A stretch of DNA of 64,000 bases, from positions 62,001 to 126,000 of the forward strand of contig JAPHRO010000027.1 of assembly GCA_026195895.1 (NCBI GenBank), in the 5' to 3' direction. The notes under the pieces were generated by a model, which saw only the letters and a program-made list of their open reading frames with translations, was not told where the DNA came from and ran no database searches. Source of the DNA: Gammaproteobacteria bacterium (lineage in GTDB: Bacteria; Pseudomonadota; Gammaproteobacteria; SZUA-229). Each line of letters begins with the position of its first letter. Positions within the stretch are counted from its first letter, which is position 1. The position numbers and the translations under genes were made by a program. Of the stretch, positions 1,022-48,592 are shown one piece after another.

Positions 1022-2290
1022 GTGGCTCAAATTGTCGACAGACGCCTGAACGGAAAGAATAAAAGCGCCGTAAATCGGCAAAAATTTATTCGTCGTTTTC
1101 GCCAGCAAATCAAGAAGGCCGTTGCCGATGCCATAGCAGAACGCAGCGTAACGGATCTCGATAAAGGCGAAAAGATTTCTATTCCCAACAAAGACACCTC
1201 CGAGCCTTTTTTTCATCATGGACAGGGGGGGCATCGGGAGCGAATACATCCCGGTAATAAAGAATTTCACAAAGGAGATAAAATTCCTCGCCCCGATGGC
1301 GGTGCCGGCCAGGGCCAGGGCAATGAAGCTTCCGACAGCGGCGAAGGACTGGACGAGTTCATGTTCGAACTCACTCGAGAAGAATTTTTGCAGTTCTTTT
1401 TTGAAGACCTGGAACTGCCCAATCTTGTTAAAACCAAATTAGCCGCCATCAACGAAACCAGCAAAGTTCGTGCTGGCCATACCAGCGATGGCATCCCAAC
1501 CAATATCAATGTCATTCGTTCTCTGCGCGGCGCCATGGGCAGACGAATTGCTCTGCGTGCACCCTATAAAAACCGCATCAGGGAACTGGAAGCAGAACTG
1601 GAAGACTTACTTAAACGCCATAATGAGTCTGACGCAGTCATCATGGCGCTGCGAGAACAAATTGCACAACTGAATAAAAAAATTGAACGCATTCCTTTTA
1701 TCGATACTTTTGATTTACGCTATGACAATAAAATTGACCGGCCTAAGCCCACCACACAGGCGGTCATGTTCTGCATCATGGATGTGTCCGGCTCCATGGG
1801 GCGCGATGAAAAAGATATGGCGAAACGCTTTTTTATGCTGCTATATATGTTCCTTACCCGTACTTACGAAAAAATACAGGTCGTGTTTATTTCCCACCAC
1901 ACTTTAGCAACTGAAGTTGATGAAGAAACTTTTTTCTATTCTCGTGAAACCGGCGGCACGGTTGTTTCCAGCGCATTAAAACTAACTGCTGAAATCATCC
2001 AGGAACGATATCCTTCTTCCGAATGGAATATTTACGCCGCTCAGGCGTCCGATGGTGATAACTGGCACAATGATTCCAAAATATGTCGAAAAATCATGAC
2101 CGAGCAGATAATGCCTTATGTGCAATATTATGCCTATATAGAAATTACTGAGGATCGCCACCAGAACCTCTGGCAGGAATATCTGCATATTAAGGACAAC
2201 TGGGCCAATTTTGCCATGCGCCGAATTGAACGCATTGCTGATATCTATCCGGTGTTTCGTAAATTGTTTCAGAAGCAGGAAAAACAATAA
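1022..2290 (+). CDS. yeaH: YeaH/YhbH family (DUF444) protein
   Basis: A 422-residue protein, close to the roughly 427 of E. coli YeaH. It starts with GTG at 1022, preceded by GGAGG near 1010. The N-terminal third is basic and Gly/His-rich (GQGGHRERIHPG), followed by a helical region and then a von Willebrand A-like domain whose metal-site motif DVSGSMG sits near residue 253. Family knowledge: DUF444 proteins accompany PrkA kinases, and their biochemical role is unsettled. The gene sits in an operon between prkA and spoVR (15 bp and 2 bp gaps). Inference: a partner or effector of the kinase in the same stress response. Confidence 0.93.
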   Translation: MAQIVDRRLNGKNKSAVNRQKFIRRFRQQIKKAVADAIAERSVTDLDKGEKISIPNKDTSEPFFHHGQGGHRERIHPGNKEFHKGDKIPRPDGGAGQGQGNEASDSGEGLDEFMFELTREEFLQFFFEDLELPNLVKTKLAAINETSKVRAGHTSDGIPTNINVIRSLRGAMGRRIALRAPYKNRIRELEAELEDLLKRHNESDAVIMALREQIAQLNKKIERIPFIDTFDLRYDNKIDRPKPTTQAVMFCIMDVSGSMGRDEKDMAKRFFMLLYMFLTRTYEKIQVVFISHHTLATEVDEETFFYSRETGGTVVSSALKLTAEIIQERYPSSEWNIYAAQASDGDNWHNDSKICRKIMTEQIMPYVQYYAYIEITEDRHQNLWQEYLHIKDNWANFAMRRIERIADIYPVFRKLFQKQEKQ

Positions 2291-2292
2291 CC

Positions 2293-3789
2293 ATGAGTAA
2301 GCAGTCACCGATATCAGAATCTTCCGAATGGACATTTGAGCTGATTGAACAATACCATCGTGAAATCGAGCGCATTGCCAAAAACTTCGGACTGGAAACC
2401 TATCCGGTACAACTGGAAATTATCACTGCTGAACAGATGATGGATGCTTATGCCTCAGTCGGCATGCCCATTGGCTATACCCACTGGTCTTTTGGCAAAG
2501 AGTTTGTTAACAATGAAAAGCGTTATAAACGCGGCATGATGGGCCTGGCCTACGAAATTGTAATAAACTCGAACCCCTGCATTGCCTATTTAATGGAAGA
2601 AAACAGTATGACCATGCAGGCACTGGTTATTGCACATGCCGCTTATGGACATAATTCATTTTTCAAAAATAATTATCTATTCACCACCTGGACCAGCGCT
2701 GATTCTATTATTGATTATTTATTATTTGCAAAAAACTATATTGCACAATGCGAAGAACGTTATGGCGAATCCAGAGTAGAAGCATTTCTTGACTCCTGCC
2801 ACGCACTTAAAAATTATGGCGTTGATCGCTATAAACGACCGCCCACGATTTCGATGCAGGAAGAACAAACCAGACAAAACGAACGTGAAGCCTATCTGCA
2901 GTCACAGATTAACGAGTTATGGAAAACCATTCCAACTAAAATAGATACCGAACTCGACCAGAAAAAATGCTGTTTTCCCACAGAGCCACAGGAAAACATA
3001 CTTTATTTTATCGAAAAAAACGCCCCCCTGCTGGAACCCTGGCAACGGGAAATTGTGCGCATTGTACGTAAAATAGCCCAGTATTTTTATCCTCAGCGAC
3101 AGACTCAGGTAATGAATGAAGGCTGGGCAACATTCTGGCATTACACCATTCTCAATCAGCTTTACGATGAAGGTTTTGTAAGCGATGGTTTCATGGTCGA
3201 ATTTTTACAGTCGCATACCAATGTTATTTATCAGCCCGCTTTCGATAGCAAATATTATTCAGGCATCAATCCCTATGCGCTGGGTTTTGCCATGATGACC
3301 GATATTCGAAGAATTTGTGAAAACCCGACCGCCGAAGATCGTCAATGGTTCCCGGATATTGCCGGCAGCGACTGGCAACAGACACTGGATTTCGCCATGC
3401 GTAATTTTAAGGATGAAAGTTTTATCAGCCAGTATCTATCACCCAAACTGATTCGGGATTTCAAATTATTTTCTATTCTTGATGATGACAGGAAGAAAGA
3501 AATAGAAGTGACTGCCATTCACGATGAACTGGGCTACCAGTATCTCCGCCAGGCCCTGGCCGAACAATATAACCTGGGTAGTCTGGAGCCGAATATTCAG
3601 GTTTACAATGTCGACGTAAAAGGCGACCGGTCGCTGACGCTACGCCATTACCAGCACCAGCGCGTGCCGCTGGATCAAACTGCCAATGAAGTTATCAAGC
3701 ACCTGGCCAGTCTATGGGGTTTTAATGTTCGTCTTGAAACTATCGACAGTGATGAATCTGTGGTGCACACTTTTGAGTGCGAAAAATAA
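2293..3789 (+). CDS. spoVR: SpoVR family protein (YcgB-like)
   Basis: A 498-residue protein matching the usual SpoVR/YcgB length. Recognisable family stretches include GMPIGYTHWSFGKEF near the N-terminus, AHAAYGHNSFFKNN, and MNEGWATFWHYTI near the middle. The last two carry conserved His/Glu residues resembling a metal site. Family knowledge: it is named for a Bacillus cortex-formation gene, but is widespread in non-sporulating proteobacteria as the third gene of the prkA-yeaH-spoVR stress operon. It starts 2 bp after the yeaH stop codon, implying co-translation. A long palindrome lies just after the stop codon, between this gene and the converging helicase. Confidence 0.94.
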   Translation: MSKQSPISESSEWTFELIEQYHREIERIAKNFGLETYPVQLEIITAEQMMDAYASVGMPIGYTHWSFGKEFVNNEKRYKRGMMGLAYEIVINSNPCIAYLMEENSMTMQALVIAHAAYGHNSFFKNNYLFTTWTSADSIIDYLLFAKNYIAQCEERYGESRVEAFLDSCHALKNYGVDRYKRPPTISMQEEQTRQNEREAYLQSQINELWKTIPTKIDTELDQKKCCFPTEPQENILYFIEKNAPLLEPWQREIVRIVRKIAQYFYPQRQTQVMNEGWATFWHYTILNQLYDEGFVSDGFMVEFLQSHTNVIYQPAFDSKYYSGINPYALGFAMMTDIRRICENPTAEDRQWFPDIAGSDWQQTLDFAMRNFKDESFISQYLSPKLIRDFKLFSILDDDRKKEIEVTAIHDELGYQYLRQALAEQYNLGSLEPNIQVYNVDVKGDRSLTLRHYQHQRVPLDQTANEVIKHLASLWGFNVRLETIDSDESVVHTFECEK

Positions 3790-3792
3790 TAC

Positions 3793-3856
3793 CTGCAGGA
3801 GCGAGCTTTAGCTCGAGATAATGTACTTGATCGCGAGCTAAAGCTCGCTGCTGCAG
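3793..3856. repeat. REP-like long palindrome between convergent genes
   Basis: Two 23-base arms, 3793-3815 and 3834-3856, are reverse complements at 22 of 23 positions and are separated by 18 bases. The core is GCGAGCTTTAGCTCG. No T-run follows, so it is not a classical terminator. The core resembles repetitive extragenic palindromes of pseudomonads (GGAGCGAGCTT...GCTCGC). It sits where two gene tails meet, the usual REP position, and could stabilise the 3' ends of both transcripts. Only one copy was noticed in this window. Confidence 0.65.
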
Positions 3857-3863
3857 GGATAAA

Positions 3864-5144
3864 CTAGGCCGCTTCAGTGCGCCGACGGCCCTGCTTATCT
3901 TTCGGTCGACCAGAACCGTAGGCGCGTTTTTTAAACCGAATATTGGGTTTACGTTTATTCGACGCTGCTTTGCTGTGCGACATCCTCGGCCTGGGTTGCT
4001 TTGGCTCCAGCCCTGCAACTTCAGTAATATTTAATTTGGCTTCCAGCAATTTTTCAATACGCGACAATAGCATCCAGTCCTGTGGACCAATTAATGAAAT
4101 GGCAGTACCGGTAGCACCACCGCGACCGGTACGACCAATACGATGCACATAATCTTCAGCCTGCATAGGCAAGTCAAAATTGATGACGTGGGATATGCCT
4201 TTAATATCCAGGCCGCGTGCAGCCACATCTGTGGCAACCAGAACCTGCAATTTATTCTTCGCCATACGCTCGATGGTGCGACGGCGCATTCCCTGACGCA
4301 TATCACCATGCAGGGCGGCAACTTCATGGCCATCCTGTTTAAGTTTTTCAGCCAGTGCCTCGGCGCCTTTTTTCGTCGCGGTAAAAATAATTGCCTGGCT
4401 TAGCTCACCTTTTTTCAACACATGGGTTAATAATGCGCGCTTATGGCGATAGTCATCGGCCTGGTGCAAATGCTGAGCAATCGATTCATGCTGAAACTTA
4501 ACCCCTGCCACCTGCACCCGAGCGGGATCTTTTAACAGGCTGCGGGCTATTTTTGCAATCTCGCCTTCCAGCGTTGCCGAAAATAATAATGTCTGACGAT
4601 TCTCCGGTGTTAATGCCGCAATACGTTTAACTTCATCGATGAATCCCATGTCTAACATACGATCGGCTTCATCCAGCACTAACACTTCCAGGCGGGAAAA
4701 ATCTACGCGACCGGCTTCAATATGATCAATCAACCGGCCGGGGGTTGCGACTAACAAATCCAGTGGCTGCTTCAGGAAGCGCATCTGTGGTGGATAAGGC
4801 ATACCGCCCACAATGGAACAGGAACGCTGGCGCAGGTATTTGGTGAAAGTATAGATATTATCCGCAACCTGTTTGGCCAGTTCACGCGTCGGCGTTAATA
4901 CCAGCACGCGGGGGCCAATGCCTTTTTTCGGTTTGTTCATCGCCAGACGTTGTAATGCGGGCAACACGAATGCCGCCGTTTTTCCAGTGCCGGTAGGTGC
5001 CGAGGCCATCAAATCGGAACCTTGCAACGCATGTGGTATCGCCTGCCGTTGAATATCAGATGGCTCAGTGAATCCTGCATCGGCTATGGCTTTTAATAAA
5101 CGATCATCGAGATCAAGATCCTGGAAAGATATACTGGAAGACAA
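3864..5144 (-). CDS. srmB: DEAD-box ATP-dependent RNA helicase, SrmB-like
   Basis: A 426-residue two-domain helicase with all core motifs: Walker A APTGTGKT (49-56), PTREL (85-89), DEAD (158-161), SAT (189-191) and HRIGRTGR (334-341). The LLFSATLEG block and early LDLDDRLLKAI resemble E. coli SrmB more than RhlE. The C-terminal tail is basic (RFKKRAYGSGRPK...), as expected for RNA binding. Family knowledge: SrmB assists early assembly of the large ribosomal subunit. The best start is a TTG at 5144 that gives the family length; no strong ribosome-binding site is seen. RhlE or a generic DEAD-box paralogue is the alternative. Confidence 0.85.
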   Translation of the reverse strand: MSSSISFQDLDLDDRLLKAIADAGFTEPSDIQRQAIPHALQGSDLMASAPTGTGKTAAFVLPALQRLAMNKPKKGIGPRVLVLTPTRELAKQVADNIYTFTKYLRQRSCSIVGGMPYPPQMRFLKQPLDLLVATPGRLIDHIEAGRVDFSRLEVLVLDEADRMLDMGFIDEVKRIAALTPENRQTLLFSATLEGEIAKIARSLLKDPARVQVAGVKFQHESIAQHLHQADDYRHKRALLTHVLKKGELSQAIIFTATKKGAEALAEKLKQDGHEVAALHGDMRQGMRRRTIERMAKNKLQVLVATDVAARGLDIKGISHVINFDLPMQAEDYVHRIGRTGRGGATGTAISLIGPQDWMLLSRIEKLLEAKLNITEVAGLEPKQPRPRMSHSKAASNKRKPNIRFKKRAYGSGRPKDKQGRRRTEAA

Positions 5145-5919
5145 ACTGAAACCCCATAAACCGACAGCATCTGCTGCAAGGCTTTAACAAATTCAAATGA
5201 ATGACGTTGCTAACCTTGATTAGTTTAACCGGGAAAGAAACGCTGCATGGATCAGAGAACATCGTGTTCCTGACAGGCGCCACACTATACGGGAAATCGC
5301 CCGACAAAGCCACAGAATATTAGAATATACGCATAAATGAAATAATAAATTGTGACGTATTTTCAATAACTTAGCCTTAAATACCAGGCAGACGCCCAAT
5401 GGCTCAGCTATCCGGACTATTCACTGCATGGGCCAGCAGGTTGCCAGACAGAAGCTCTGTTATCGGGCCGCGCCCTTCTGTTAGCCCGTAGGAATTCTGC
5501 CATGCCAGATAGCCGTAATATGCGCCAATAAATTCCCCGGGAGATCACCACAAAAACAAAAATCGGCTCACGATCAGAACTCCGCTCATTAGCGGTAGTT
5601 ATAAATAATAAGCAAAGCAGAACAGATAAAATTCACCGAAAAAAATCCTTAACAAAGAATTTATCGCCAGCACGGTTAATCTAAAACCCAGCAACGGATA
5701 CATAAATAACATCACTGGGCAAACCGCCAGACAGATCAGACCTAAGCTGTATTTTTTATAGAGCGTTTATTAATGGCACTATTACCTGCAGCAAACCTCT
5801 CCGGATGGAAGTGCCTGGCATTTTTCGACCAACACCCGCTGTTTATCCGGCTCTGCTATTGTCTTTTGAAAGGCAGCTAGCTATATTAGAGTTCCCCAAT
5901 AATCCTGGTCCCGATAATT
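5145..5919. other. 775-bp region without intact gene; possible decayed gene on minus strand
   Basis: No ORF with a credible start and ribosome site covers this stretch. On the minus strand two protein-like pieces in different frames are visible. About 5765 to 5589 encodes a strongly hydrophobic segment (LAVCPVMLFMYPLLGF... ending IIYNYR, stop at 5589). Bases 5544 to 5404 encode IGAYYGYLAWQNSYGLTEG... ending HAVNSPDS with a stop at 5404. The mixture of stops and a frame change is what an eroded membrane-protein gene would look like, but the original family is not recognised. The end near 5145 should also contain the helicase promoter; no strong consensus pair was found. Confidence 0.35.
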
Positions 5920-35865: not shown

Positions 35866-35923
35866 ATAACCTGAAGAAACACAAAACACGCTATTTAATC
35901 CGAAGATATGTGTTTGAAAAACT

Positions 35924-35962
35924 ACCACCAATCTCTGTTCCCTGGCATCAGCGTGGTGTTCT
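35924..35962 (+). repeat. Array unit 1 (degenerate)
   Basis: It has the loop-1-like CAATCTCT (35929-35936), GTTCC (35937-35941) and the exact loop-2 TCAGCGTGGT (35948-35957). The partner arms no longer pair. Between this unit and unit 2 lies a partial echo, TCAGCGTG at 36033, and a 7-bp stem TTGCGTG (35962-35968)/CACGCAA (36025-36031). Confidence 0.5.
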
Positions 35963-36081
35963 TGCGTGTGAACGACTGCAGGGATGCAGAAGGTAGAGTA
36001 ACGCAGGAGCAGTTACCGAGACGACACGCAAATCAGCGTGCGAAGCACACATATTCAAGTTTAGGGAAATCAAAAAAGGTC

Positions 36082-36118
36082 GGAACTAATCCCTGTTCCT
36101 AGCATCAGCGTGGTTGCT
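36082..36118 (+). repeat. Array unit 2
   Basis: Hairpin 1: GGAAC (36082-36086), loop TAATCCCT, GTTCC (36095-36099). Hairpin 2: AGCA (36101-36104), loop TCAGCGTGGT, TGCT (36115-36118). The tail is TATATAAAA. Confidence 0.65.
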
Positions 36119-36183
36119 TATATAAAAACTACAAACTCTGTCGGCCCCAAGACGAACATCTCAAAGCCTGGAATAAAAATAGC

Positions 36184-36222
36184 GGAGCTAATCCCTGCTC
36201 CTATGCATCAGCGTGGTTGCAT
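36184..36222 (+). repeat. Array unit 3
   Basis: Hairpin 1: GGAGC (36184-36188), loop TAATCCCT, GCTCC (36197-36201). Hairpin 2: ATGCA (36203-36207), loop TCAGCGTGGT, TGCAT (36218-36222). The following spacer itself folds (GCCGGAGAGA / TCTCTGGC around 36238-36260). Confidence 0.65.
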
Positions 36223-36275
36223 TATATAAAACTGTGCGCCGGAGAGACCTTTCTCTGGCCGGGTATAAAAAGAGC

Positions 36276-36314
36276 GATGCTAATCCATGCATCTAAGCAT
36301 CAGCGTGGTTGCTT
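36276..36314 (+). repeat. Array unit 4
   Basis: Hairpin 1: GATGC (36276-36280), loop TAATCCAT, GCATC (36289-36293). Hairpin 2: AAGCA (36295-36299), loop TCAGCGTGGT, TGCTT (36310-36314). Both stems differ from units 2 and 3 at paired positions, with pairing kept. Confidence 0.65.
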
Positions 36315-36459
36315 TCTAAAAAAGTTAATTCACTTAATCCTGGTGCAGCTCTGCAAACTTTATATGCCAGTAATAGTTGCAGGCTACATGCCAACTTTTC
36401 ACTCTTATATAAATCAATAACTTACAGATGCTCGAAATAAAATCATGGGATATGGAGTT

Positions 36460-36555
36460 GCAAATTGCACTTTTATCAAAACCTGCATTGTGCATAGTGC
36501 AATTTGCCACACCTGGTTGCCTGGCTTGCTTCGATAAACTTACTGTGCAGCCAGG
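36460..36555. other. Two long-range stems downstream of the array
   Basis: GCAAATTGCAC (36460-36470) pairs perfectly with GTGCAATTTGC (36497-36507), enclosing 26 bases that contain a TGCA...TGCA mini-stem. CCTGGCT (36520-36526) pairs with AGCCAGG (36549-36555). With the terminator at 36607-36630 they form a run of three stems. Confidence 0.5.
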
Positions 36556-47434: not shown

Positions 47435-48592
47435 CTAGTCCCAGGTACTTTGATTAACATTATGTCGCGGTATATCTTCATGACAGCTACTGCTGGCACA
47501 ATCGATTAAACCACTAATCGGTGCGTTGTCATGTTCACCCTGATCATAGTCATCAGCATGGCAGGCAGCACACTCTGGCGCATAGGTAGCAAAACGCCAG
47601 CTTATGGTTTGTGAATTACTGGTATGACAATCATTACAATCAGGATTGCTGCCAGTATGATCACCCGGATAATTTGCACTCTGGTGATCAAACTCCAGTG
47701 CAGGCTCCCAGAAGTTAGTGCTATGGCAGGTGTCACATTGTAATGAAGTTACAAAATGTCCCTGGCCTTTACCGGTAGCAATGACGCCATTGTGGCAAGT
47801 ATTACAGCCAGACGTAATATTGTCATGATCAAAATTAGCGGGGCTCCAGGCACTGGTTGAATGACAGTCATCACAGGCTTCACCGCTGGGAATATGAGAC
47901 GGCGTTTTACCGGTAGCCGTAGTTCCGTTATGACAGGTAATGCAGGACACCGTTATATTTGAGTGATCAAATCTTGCCGGGGTCCAGGCGTTGGTTGAAT
48001 GGCAGTCATCACAGGCATTGCCACTAAGTATATGAGCAGGATTTTTACCCGTAGCCGTGGTTCCATTGTGACAGGTAATACAGGACAGGGTTATATCAGA
48101 ATGATCAAATCGCGCCGGCACCCAGGCAATCGATAAATGACAGTCATCACATTCATTACTCGACTGAATATGATTAAGCGGCTTGCCGGTAGCTCTTACG
48201 CCATTGTGGCAACTATAGCAGCTACCGGTCAGCTCACTATGATCCATTCTGACCAGTGTCCAGGAACTATCGGTATGACAATCATCACAACTGGCACTGG
48301 TTTGTACGTGAGTGATCGGTTTTATACTGGCCGCTATCTGACTCACCTGCTCATGACAACCTTCACAGGTTTTTGGTATACCGCGAAAAATTCCCCGTAT
48401 ATGGCATGAATCGCAGGACAACACACTATGCTGACCGGTTAACATAAAACCGGTCAGGCTATGATCGAATTCATCATCCTCGTCATTATTAGCTGCCTGC
48501 GCCAACGTCATCCATATTAATGACATAAACAGAGTTAAAAACATCAGACGCTTAACTGTTCGCTGATTACCTGTTAAATGATTCACAACCAC
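47435..48592 (-). CDS. 14-heme c-type cytochrome (cytochrome c3-like family)
   Basis: A 385-residue exported protein. A signal peptide (about 14-34, LMFLTLFMSLIWMTLAQA) is followed by 13 CxxCH heme motifs and one CX4CH (CASSSCH) near the C-terminus. The middle is a repeat of about 41 residues, WxPARFDHSxITxSCITCHNG followed by TGKxPxHIxSGxACDDCH, present about five times, so the protein grew by internal duplication. Extra histidines (FDH, GHF) could serve as distal haem ligands. It is expected to be periplasmic or surface-associated and to move electrons. It sits between the 21-heme gene and the beta-barrel gene. Confidence 0.9.
   Translation of the reverse strand: MVVNHLTGNQRTVKRLMFLTLFMSLIWMTLAQAANNDEDDEFDHSLTGFMLTGQHSVLSCDSCHIRGIFRGIPKTCEGCHEQVSQIAASIKPITHVQTSASCDDCHTDSSWTLVRMDHSELTGSCYSCHNGVRATGKPLNHIQSSNECDDCHLSIAWVPARFDHSDITLSCITCHNGTTATGKNPAHILSGNACDDCHSTNAWTPARFDHSNITVSCITCHNGTTATGKTPSHIPSGEACDDCHSTSAWSPANFDHDNITSGCNTCHNGVIATGKGQGHFVTSLQCDTCHSTNFWEPALEFDHQSANYPGDHTGSNPDCNDCHTSNSQTISWRFATYAPECAACHADDYDQGEHDNAPISGLIDCASSSCHEDIPRHNVNQSTWD

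Follow-up and report, generated by a model that had tools for sequence, protein, structure and literature searches.

GlmY and GlmZ are small RNAs under sigma-54 control. GlmY acts as a decoy for RapZ (PMC7073468). At the qrr promoters of Vibrio, the upstream activating sequence of LuxO is TTGCAWWWTGCAA, and SypG uses the same site in V. fischeri (PMC10162802). In V. fluvialis, pairs of LuxO sites are located at -119/-89 and -103/-89 (PMC11443567). The CbrB site is TGTTAC-N12-14-GTAACA (PMC8871633). The core motif of CsrA/RsmE is A(N)GGA, for which a hexaloop is the optimum. In SL1 of RsmZ the loop is 8 nt long, with two nucleotides in addition to ANGGAX, and the binding of RsmE is about 10-fold weaker than that to a hexaloop (PMC4005645). 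The number of GGA motifs in E. coli is 22 for CsrB and 14 for CsrC (PMC11882849).

We analyzed an array of paired hairpins in a stretch of 64,000 nucleotides (the window) from contig JAPHRO010000027.1. Comparison of the locus among related genomes indicated that the array is very probably an undescribed family of minus-strand, sigma-54-dependent small RNAs. A sequence-only reading of the window had described units 2 to 4 as paired hairpins with constant loops, and the letters that it quoted are present. Read on the minus strand, a unit consists of hairpin H2' (loop ACCACGCUGA) and hairpin H1' (loop ANGGANU, with the CsrA/RsmA core), followed typically by the U-run GCTCTTTTTAT. Unit 4 (36267-36314, minus strand) has H2' at plus-strand coordinates 36295-36314, with the loop ACCACGCTGA at 36309-36300, and H1' at 36293-36276 (stem GATGC/GCATC), with the loop ATGGATTA and then GCTCTTTTT. 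Unit 3 (36175-36222, minus strand) has H2' at plus-strand coordinates 36203-36222 and H1' at 36201-36184 (GGAGC/GCTCC), with the loop AGGGATTA and then GCTATTTTT. In unit 2 (36074-36118, minus strand), H2' lies at plus-strand coordinates 36101-36118, and H1' at 36099-36082 (GGAAC/GTTCC) has the same loop, AGGGATTA, and then GACCTTTTTT. Unit 1 (35930-35957, minus strand) is a damaged, degenerate copy in which the H2' loop is kept and the H1' stem is gone; the same reading had noticed the kept loop and the lost pairing. The feature reaches to about 36502 once the promoter region is counted. The window contains four exact copies of GCATCAGCGTGGT (at 35945, 36102, 36205 and 36297), which are also the only four in the whole 3.33-Mb genome. 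When up to two mismatches were allowed, eight matches were found in the window against 1.74 expected, and none of 100 shuffles reached eight.

A REP/MITE-like insertion of 70 nt (35961-36032) with an 8-bp terminal inverted repeat (TTGCGTGT/ACACGCAA) and an internal CTGCAGGGATGCAG adjoins unit 1. Similar sequences adjoin damaged units in three other genomes (G005, G009 and G022), which suggests that the distal units may have been hit repeatedly by such insertions. In two decayed units of relatives (L061 9355-9410 and L059 9685-9740), another hairpin (CAGCATGT..ACATGCTG) stands in place of H2'. In both of them the H1' stem still pairs and the GGA is gone, which suggests that the loops of H2' and H1' form a single module.

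The compensating stem changes noticed in the window were also found across the units of nine genomes. Stem 1 was 100% paired in the 15 intact units of these genomes, with both sides changed in three of its five pairs, namely the three inner ones. Its variants, each with the complement on the other arm, were GGAAC, GGAGC, GATGC, GACGC, GGGGC, GGTGC and GGGAC. The covariation score of stem 1 in the same units was 0.400, which none of 500 shuffles reached, and slid controls, like the shuffled ones, were far below the observed value. In stem 2, the two outer pairs change together. The intact stems are entirely Watson-Crick, and RNAalifold recovered both hairpins unguided from the minus-strand alignment. 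Since the folding energy of a single unit was no better than that of shuffles (z about 0), the evidence for the structure is covariation and not stability. When three damaged copies were included, stem 1 on the minus strand was 100% paired in 20 units, with two U-G pairs, both from damaged units, that would be C-A mismatches on the plus strand. These two pairs appear to favor the minus strand and are supportive only.

The 10-nt H2' loop was invariant across genera, except for one extra base in one unit. The H1' loop followed the pattern A-N-G-G-A-N-U-N, in which A1 and U7 are invariant, and a U-run came after every H1'. Since the loops are constant while the stems drift independently, something would appear to read the loops.

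We then aligned the region from groEL to the array. On the minus strand, TTGCAnnnTGCAA-type boxes, TAAGTTATTGATTT, TGGCA-N7-TGC and the first unit follow in that order, and TAAGTTATTGATTT is IHF-like when read from the opposite strand. The sigma-54 promoter TGGCA-N7-TGC and the TTGCAnnnTGCAA-type boxes were common to all 10 genomes that carry the array, and the IHF-like site was present in most. In the window, the distal enhancer box TTGCACTATGCAC, of the TTGCAnnnTGCAA type, is located at 36490-36502 (minus strand, about -129), with columns conserved in the 10 carriers and departures of one or two bases in some. The proximal box GTGCAATTTGCAA is at 36458-36470 (minus strand, about -97). Between the enhancers and the promoter lies the IHF-like site AATCAATAACTTA (36412-36424, plus strand), which is weaker in some relatives. 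The sigma-54 promoter TGGCATGTAGCCTGCA occupies 36378-36393 on the minus strand, with the -24 GG at 36392-36391 and the -12 GC at 36380-36379. Its position would place the transcription start at about 36367, and the predicted 5' leader (36315-36367, minus strand) contains a GAGCTNCAACCGGA-like stretch that is partly conserved in the promoter alignment. Across the 10 genomes, the sigma-54 site matched the consensus at a mean of 11.7 of 12 positions and the best enhancer box at 9.8 of 10, both far above anything seen in 300 dinucleotide shuffles. The distance from the inferred start to the first H2' loop was 48 to 87 nt. In the genome of the window, five other exact copies of TTGCANNNTGCAA were found, apparently intragenic and with no convincing sigma-54 site adjoining.

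Three minus-strand terminator-like hairpins are present in the array of the window, where no strong final terminator was found. Strong minus-strand terminators follow the array in seven relatives (G002, G003, G004, G009, G014, G015 and G033), from which RNA lengths of roughly 130 to 390 nt were predicted.

Homologous units that keep both loops and pairing stems were recovered with a covariance model in 10 of the 54 genomes of the same family. In a sample of 369 genomes of the class, the model had no hits beyond this family. A pattern scan of one genome per species (84,980 species) returned eight contigs, all from gammaproteobacterial metagenome-assembled genomes; the filters and pattern were strict, and very divergent copies could escape. 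The carrier bacteria are known here only as metagenome-assembled genomes. Where the contigs of carriers reach the neighboring genes, znuA-like and pilZ-domain genes precede the array, and groEL faces it from the other side. The groEL gene is usually beside the array, but other genes are found there in G033 and G009. The array of G015 is separated from groEL by an integrated element (L059 10506-17803, about 8 kb) with a phage-type integrase, replication-like genes and small genes, as named by eye from the translations. The number of intact units per RNA ranged from one to four, and five of the 10 carriers had one. In the groEL tree the carriers clustered, and a single origin of the array followed by losses is not excluded. 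No enhancer boxes were found downstream of groEL in the non-carriers of the family that were examined; the contig of G023 ends at this locus, so that absence there is not established. Taken together, the sequence comparisons make the units, covariation, strand, promoter and synteny well supported.

In the sequence-only reading, an unknown small-RNA family had been one candidate, and the Rfam comparison returned no match at the gathering score. Sub-threshold matches looked like chance matches to terminator hairpins. The locus resembles the Vibrio Qrr system in its sigma-54 promoter, its pair of TTGCAnnnTGCAA boxes about 90 to 130 nt upstream and its predicted intergenic small RNA. However, the Rfam Qrr model gave no match to the window stretch at the gathering score, nor any at E up to 10, the body consists of tandem two-hairpin units, the host is not a member of the Vibrionaceae, and the array lies beside groEL and not luxO. 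Like RsmX/Y/Z and CsrB/C, the array can present ANGGA repeatedly in the apical loops of short stems, and its H1' loop is of the 8-nt version seen in SL1 of RsmZ. In contrast, it has one to four such sites only and a second invariant loop without GGA, the Rfam models of CsrB, CsrC, RsmY and RsmZ gave no match, and its promoter is of the sigma-54 type whereas RsmY/Z are under GacA-type control. CrcZ/CrcY would share with the array sigma-54 and two-component (CbrB) control and the involvement of IHF, and inspection by eye revealed neither the CbrB site in the promoter alignment nor A-rich Crc/Hfq motifs on the minus strand of the array. GlmY/GlmZ are alike as sigma-54 small RNAs, with GlmY as a decoy, but the array is tandem, has TTGCA boxes and has no Rfam match.

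The enhancer boxes of the array promoter fit the LuxO sequence given above, although W3 does not hold for the 3-nt spacer in every case and some boxes depart from the consensus at one or two positions. The genome encodes 11 strong sigma-54 activator domains, and among the nine of these that were scanned, none was a LuxO equivalog at the NCBIfam cut-off. One candidate two-component pair (G000:C2, L162 1910-5199) consists of a histidine kinase (1910-3850) followed by a regulator (3847-5199) that ends in STLWRKLQSW, a LuxO-like recognition helix. The critical residues of the LuxO recognition helix are S, I, Y, R, K and L (PMC11407668). Orthologues of the candidate regulator (at least 74% identity) were found in eight of 10 carriers and three of 44 non-carriers (Fisher p 6e-6, uncorrected for ancestry), a co-occurrence that is confounded by shared ancestry. 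No orthologue was found in G002, which is 100% complete and carries the RNA. The assignment of this pair as the activator of the array promoter is therefore tentative.

From these features we infer that a response-regulator-type enhancer-binding protein would sit on the TTGCAnnnTGCAA boxes, with bending by IHF probably helping activation, and would switch on the sigma-54 promoter to produce a minus-strand small regulatory RNA with one to four units. Each unit would display the invariant H2' loop ACCACGCUGA and the H1' loop ANGGANU with a U-run after it. On balance, we narrowly favor an RNA of this kind, under a two-component activator, whose several hairpins would serve as a decoy, with CsrA the most likely target. 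CsrA, for which the genome contains a single gene, would be the most likely reader of the H1' loop. As a decoy under sigma-54 control, the RNA could then release CsrA targets from regulation, with the tandem copies raising valency. This CsrA step by itself is put forward tentatively and may well be wrong. The H1' loop is an octaloop and not a hexaloop, which is suboptimal for CsrA, and with one ANGGA loop per intact unit, the five carriers with one intact unit have few sites for a CsrA sponge. CsrA also leaves unexplained U7 of H1' and the invariant H2' loop, which has no GGA. It is unlikely, but conceivable, that in such a decoy outside the Vibrionaceae, with its qrr-type promoter, one loop serves CsrA while the invariant second loop serves another partner, and that one signal thereby links the release of Csr to a second regulatory output.

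The same promoter architecture, which matches that of qrr, could instead drive a trans-acting small RNA of the Qrr kind, in which the H2' loop, and perhaps a Shine-Dalgarno-like H1' loop, pairs with mRNAs and the U-runs are putative Hfq sites. The invariance of the H2' loop across genera and the U-run after every H1' are consistent with such pairing, and tandem units would add seed copies. However, the exact complement TCAGCGTGGT occurred 24 times in six carriers against 28 for the reversed control (perfect 10-mers only, with sites preceded by A left out), and no conserved mRNA start was found near these sites. There was also no long pairing with the mRNA starts of neighboring genes or of the candidate operon, and the Qrr model of Rfam, as noted, had no match. 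We consider base-pairing of this kind somewhat unlikely. A minus-strand decoy for another RNA-binding protein, RapZ-like or other, that reads H2' and H1' jointly would account for two loops that are both invariant and are lost together, and for A1 and U7, which exceed the CsrA core. Yet no candidate protein was identified, and we regard this alternative as quite unlikely.

The proposal that the array is an RNA that titrates a protein is plausible in view of its repeated modules and constant loops, but the plus strand on which it had been placed (35.9 to 36.6 kb) does not agree with the results. Stem 1 can also fold when read on the plus strand. Nevertheless, the minus strand is indicated by the sigma-54 promoter and its enhancer boxes, by the U-runs that follow H1' and by the terminators, units have no U-run after them on the plus strand, and neither strand yielded a sigma-70-like promoter. 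In five relatives (G003, G004, G009, G015 and G033), terminator hairpins on the pilZ side precede the array on the plus strand, in the path of such a transcript. We rejected the plus-strand transcript, and a plus-strand titrating RNA is scarcely credible. It is also very improbable that the array is a DNA-level element made of recombination sites, protein-binding dyads or REP-like repeats. The all-Watson-Crick intact stems and the REP-like insertion beside unit 1 would suit such an element, but each genome has one locus, in fixed orientation behind the promoter, and none elsewhere. The earlier suggestion of a recombination substrate is thus unsupported, and a recombination, REP or attC-like array was rejected in view of the single syntenic locus in carriers.

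With the minus-strand sigma-54 RNA as the preferred reading, the array would add a small-RNA family that Rfam lacks, for which the promoter is precise, the repeated module is defined and a two-component pair is the candidate activator. Should the CsrA step be true, the family would be the sigma-54-dependent equivalent of RsmZ/CsrB, whose usual control is of the GacA type. If base-pairing is true instead, it would represent Qrr-like control outside the Vibrionaceae.

Elsewhere in the window, an open reading frame of 385 amino acids (47435-48592, minus strand) has many CxxCH motifs and is multiheme cytochrome-like. Within it, a 138-bp tandem repeat (47825-48193) encodes heme-binding-like repeat units, and the protein looks like one that has grown by repeats.
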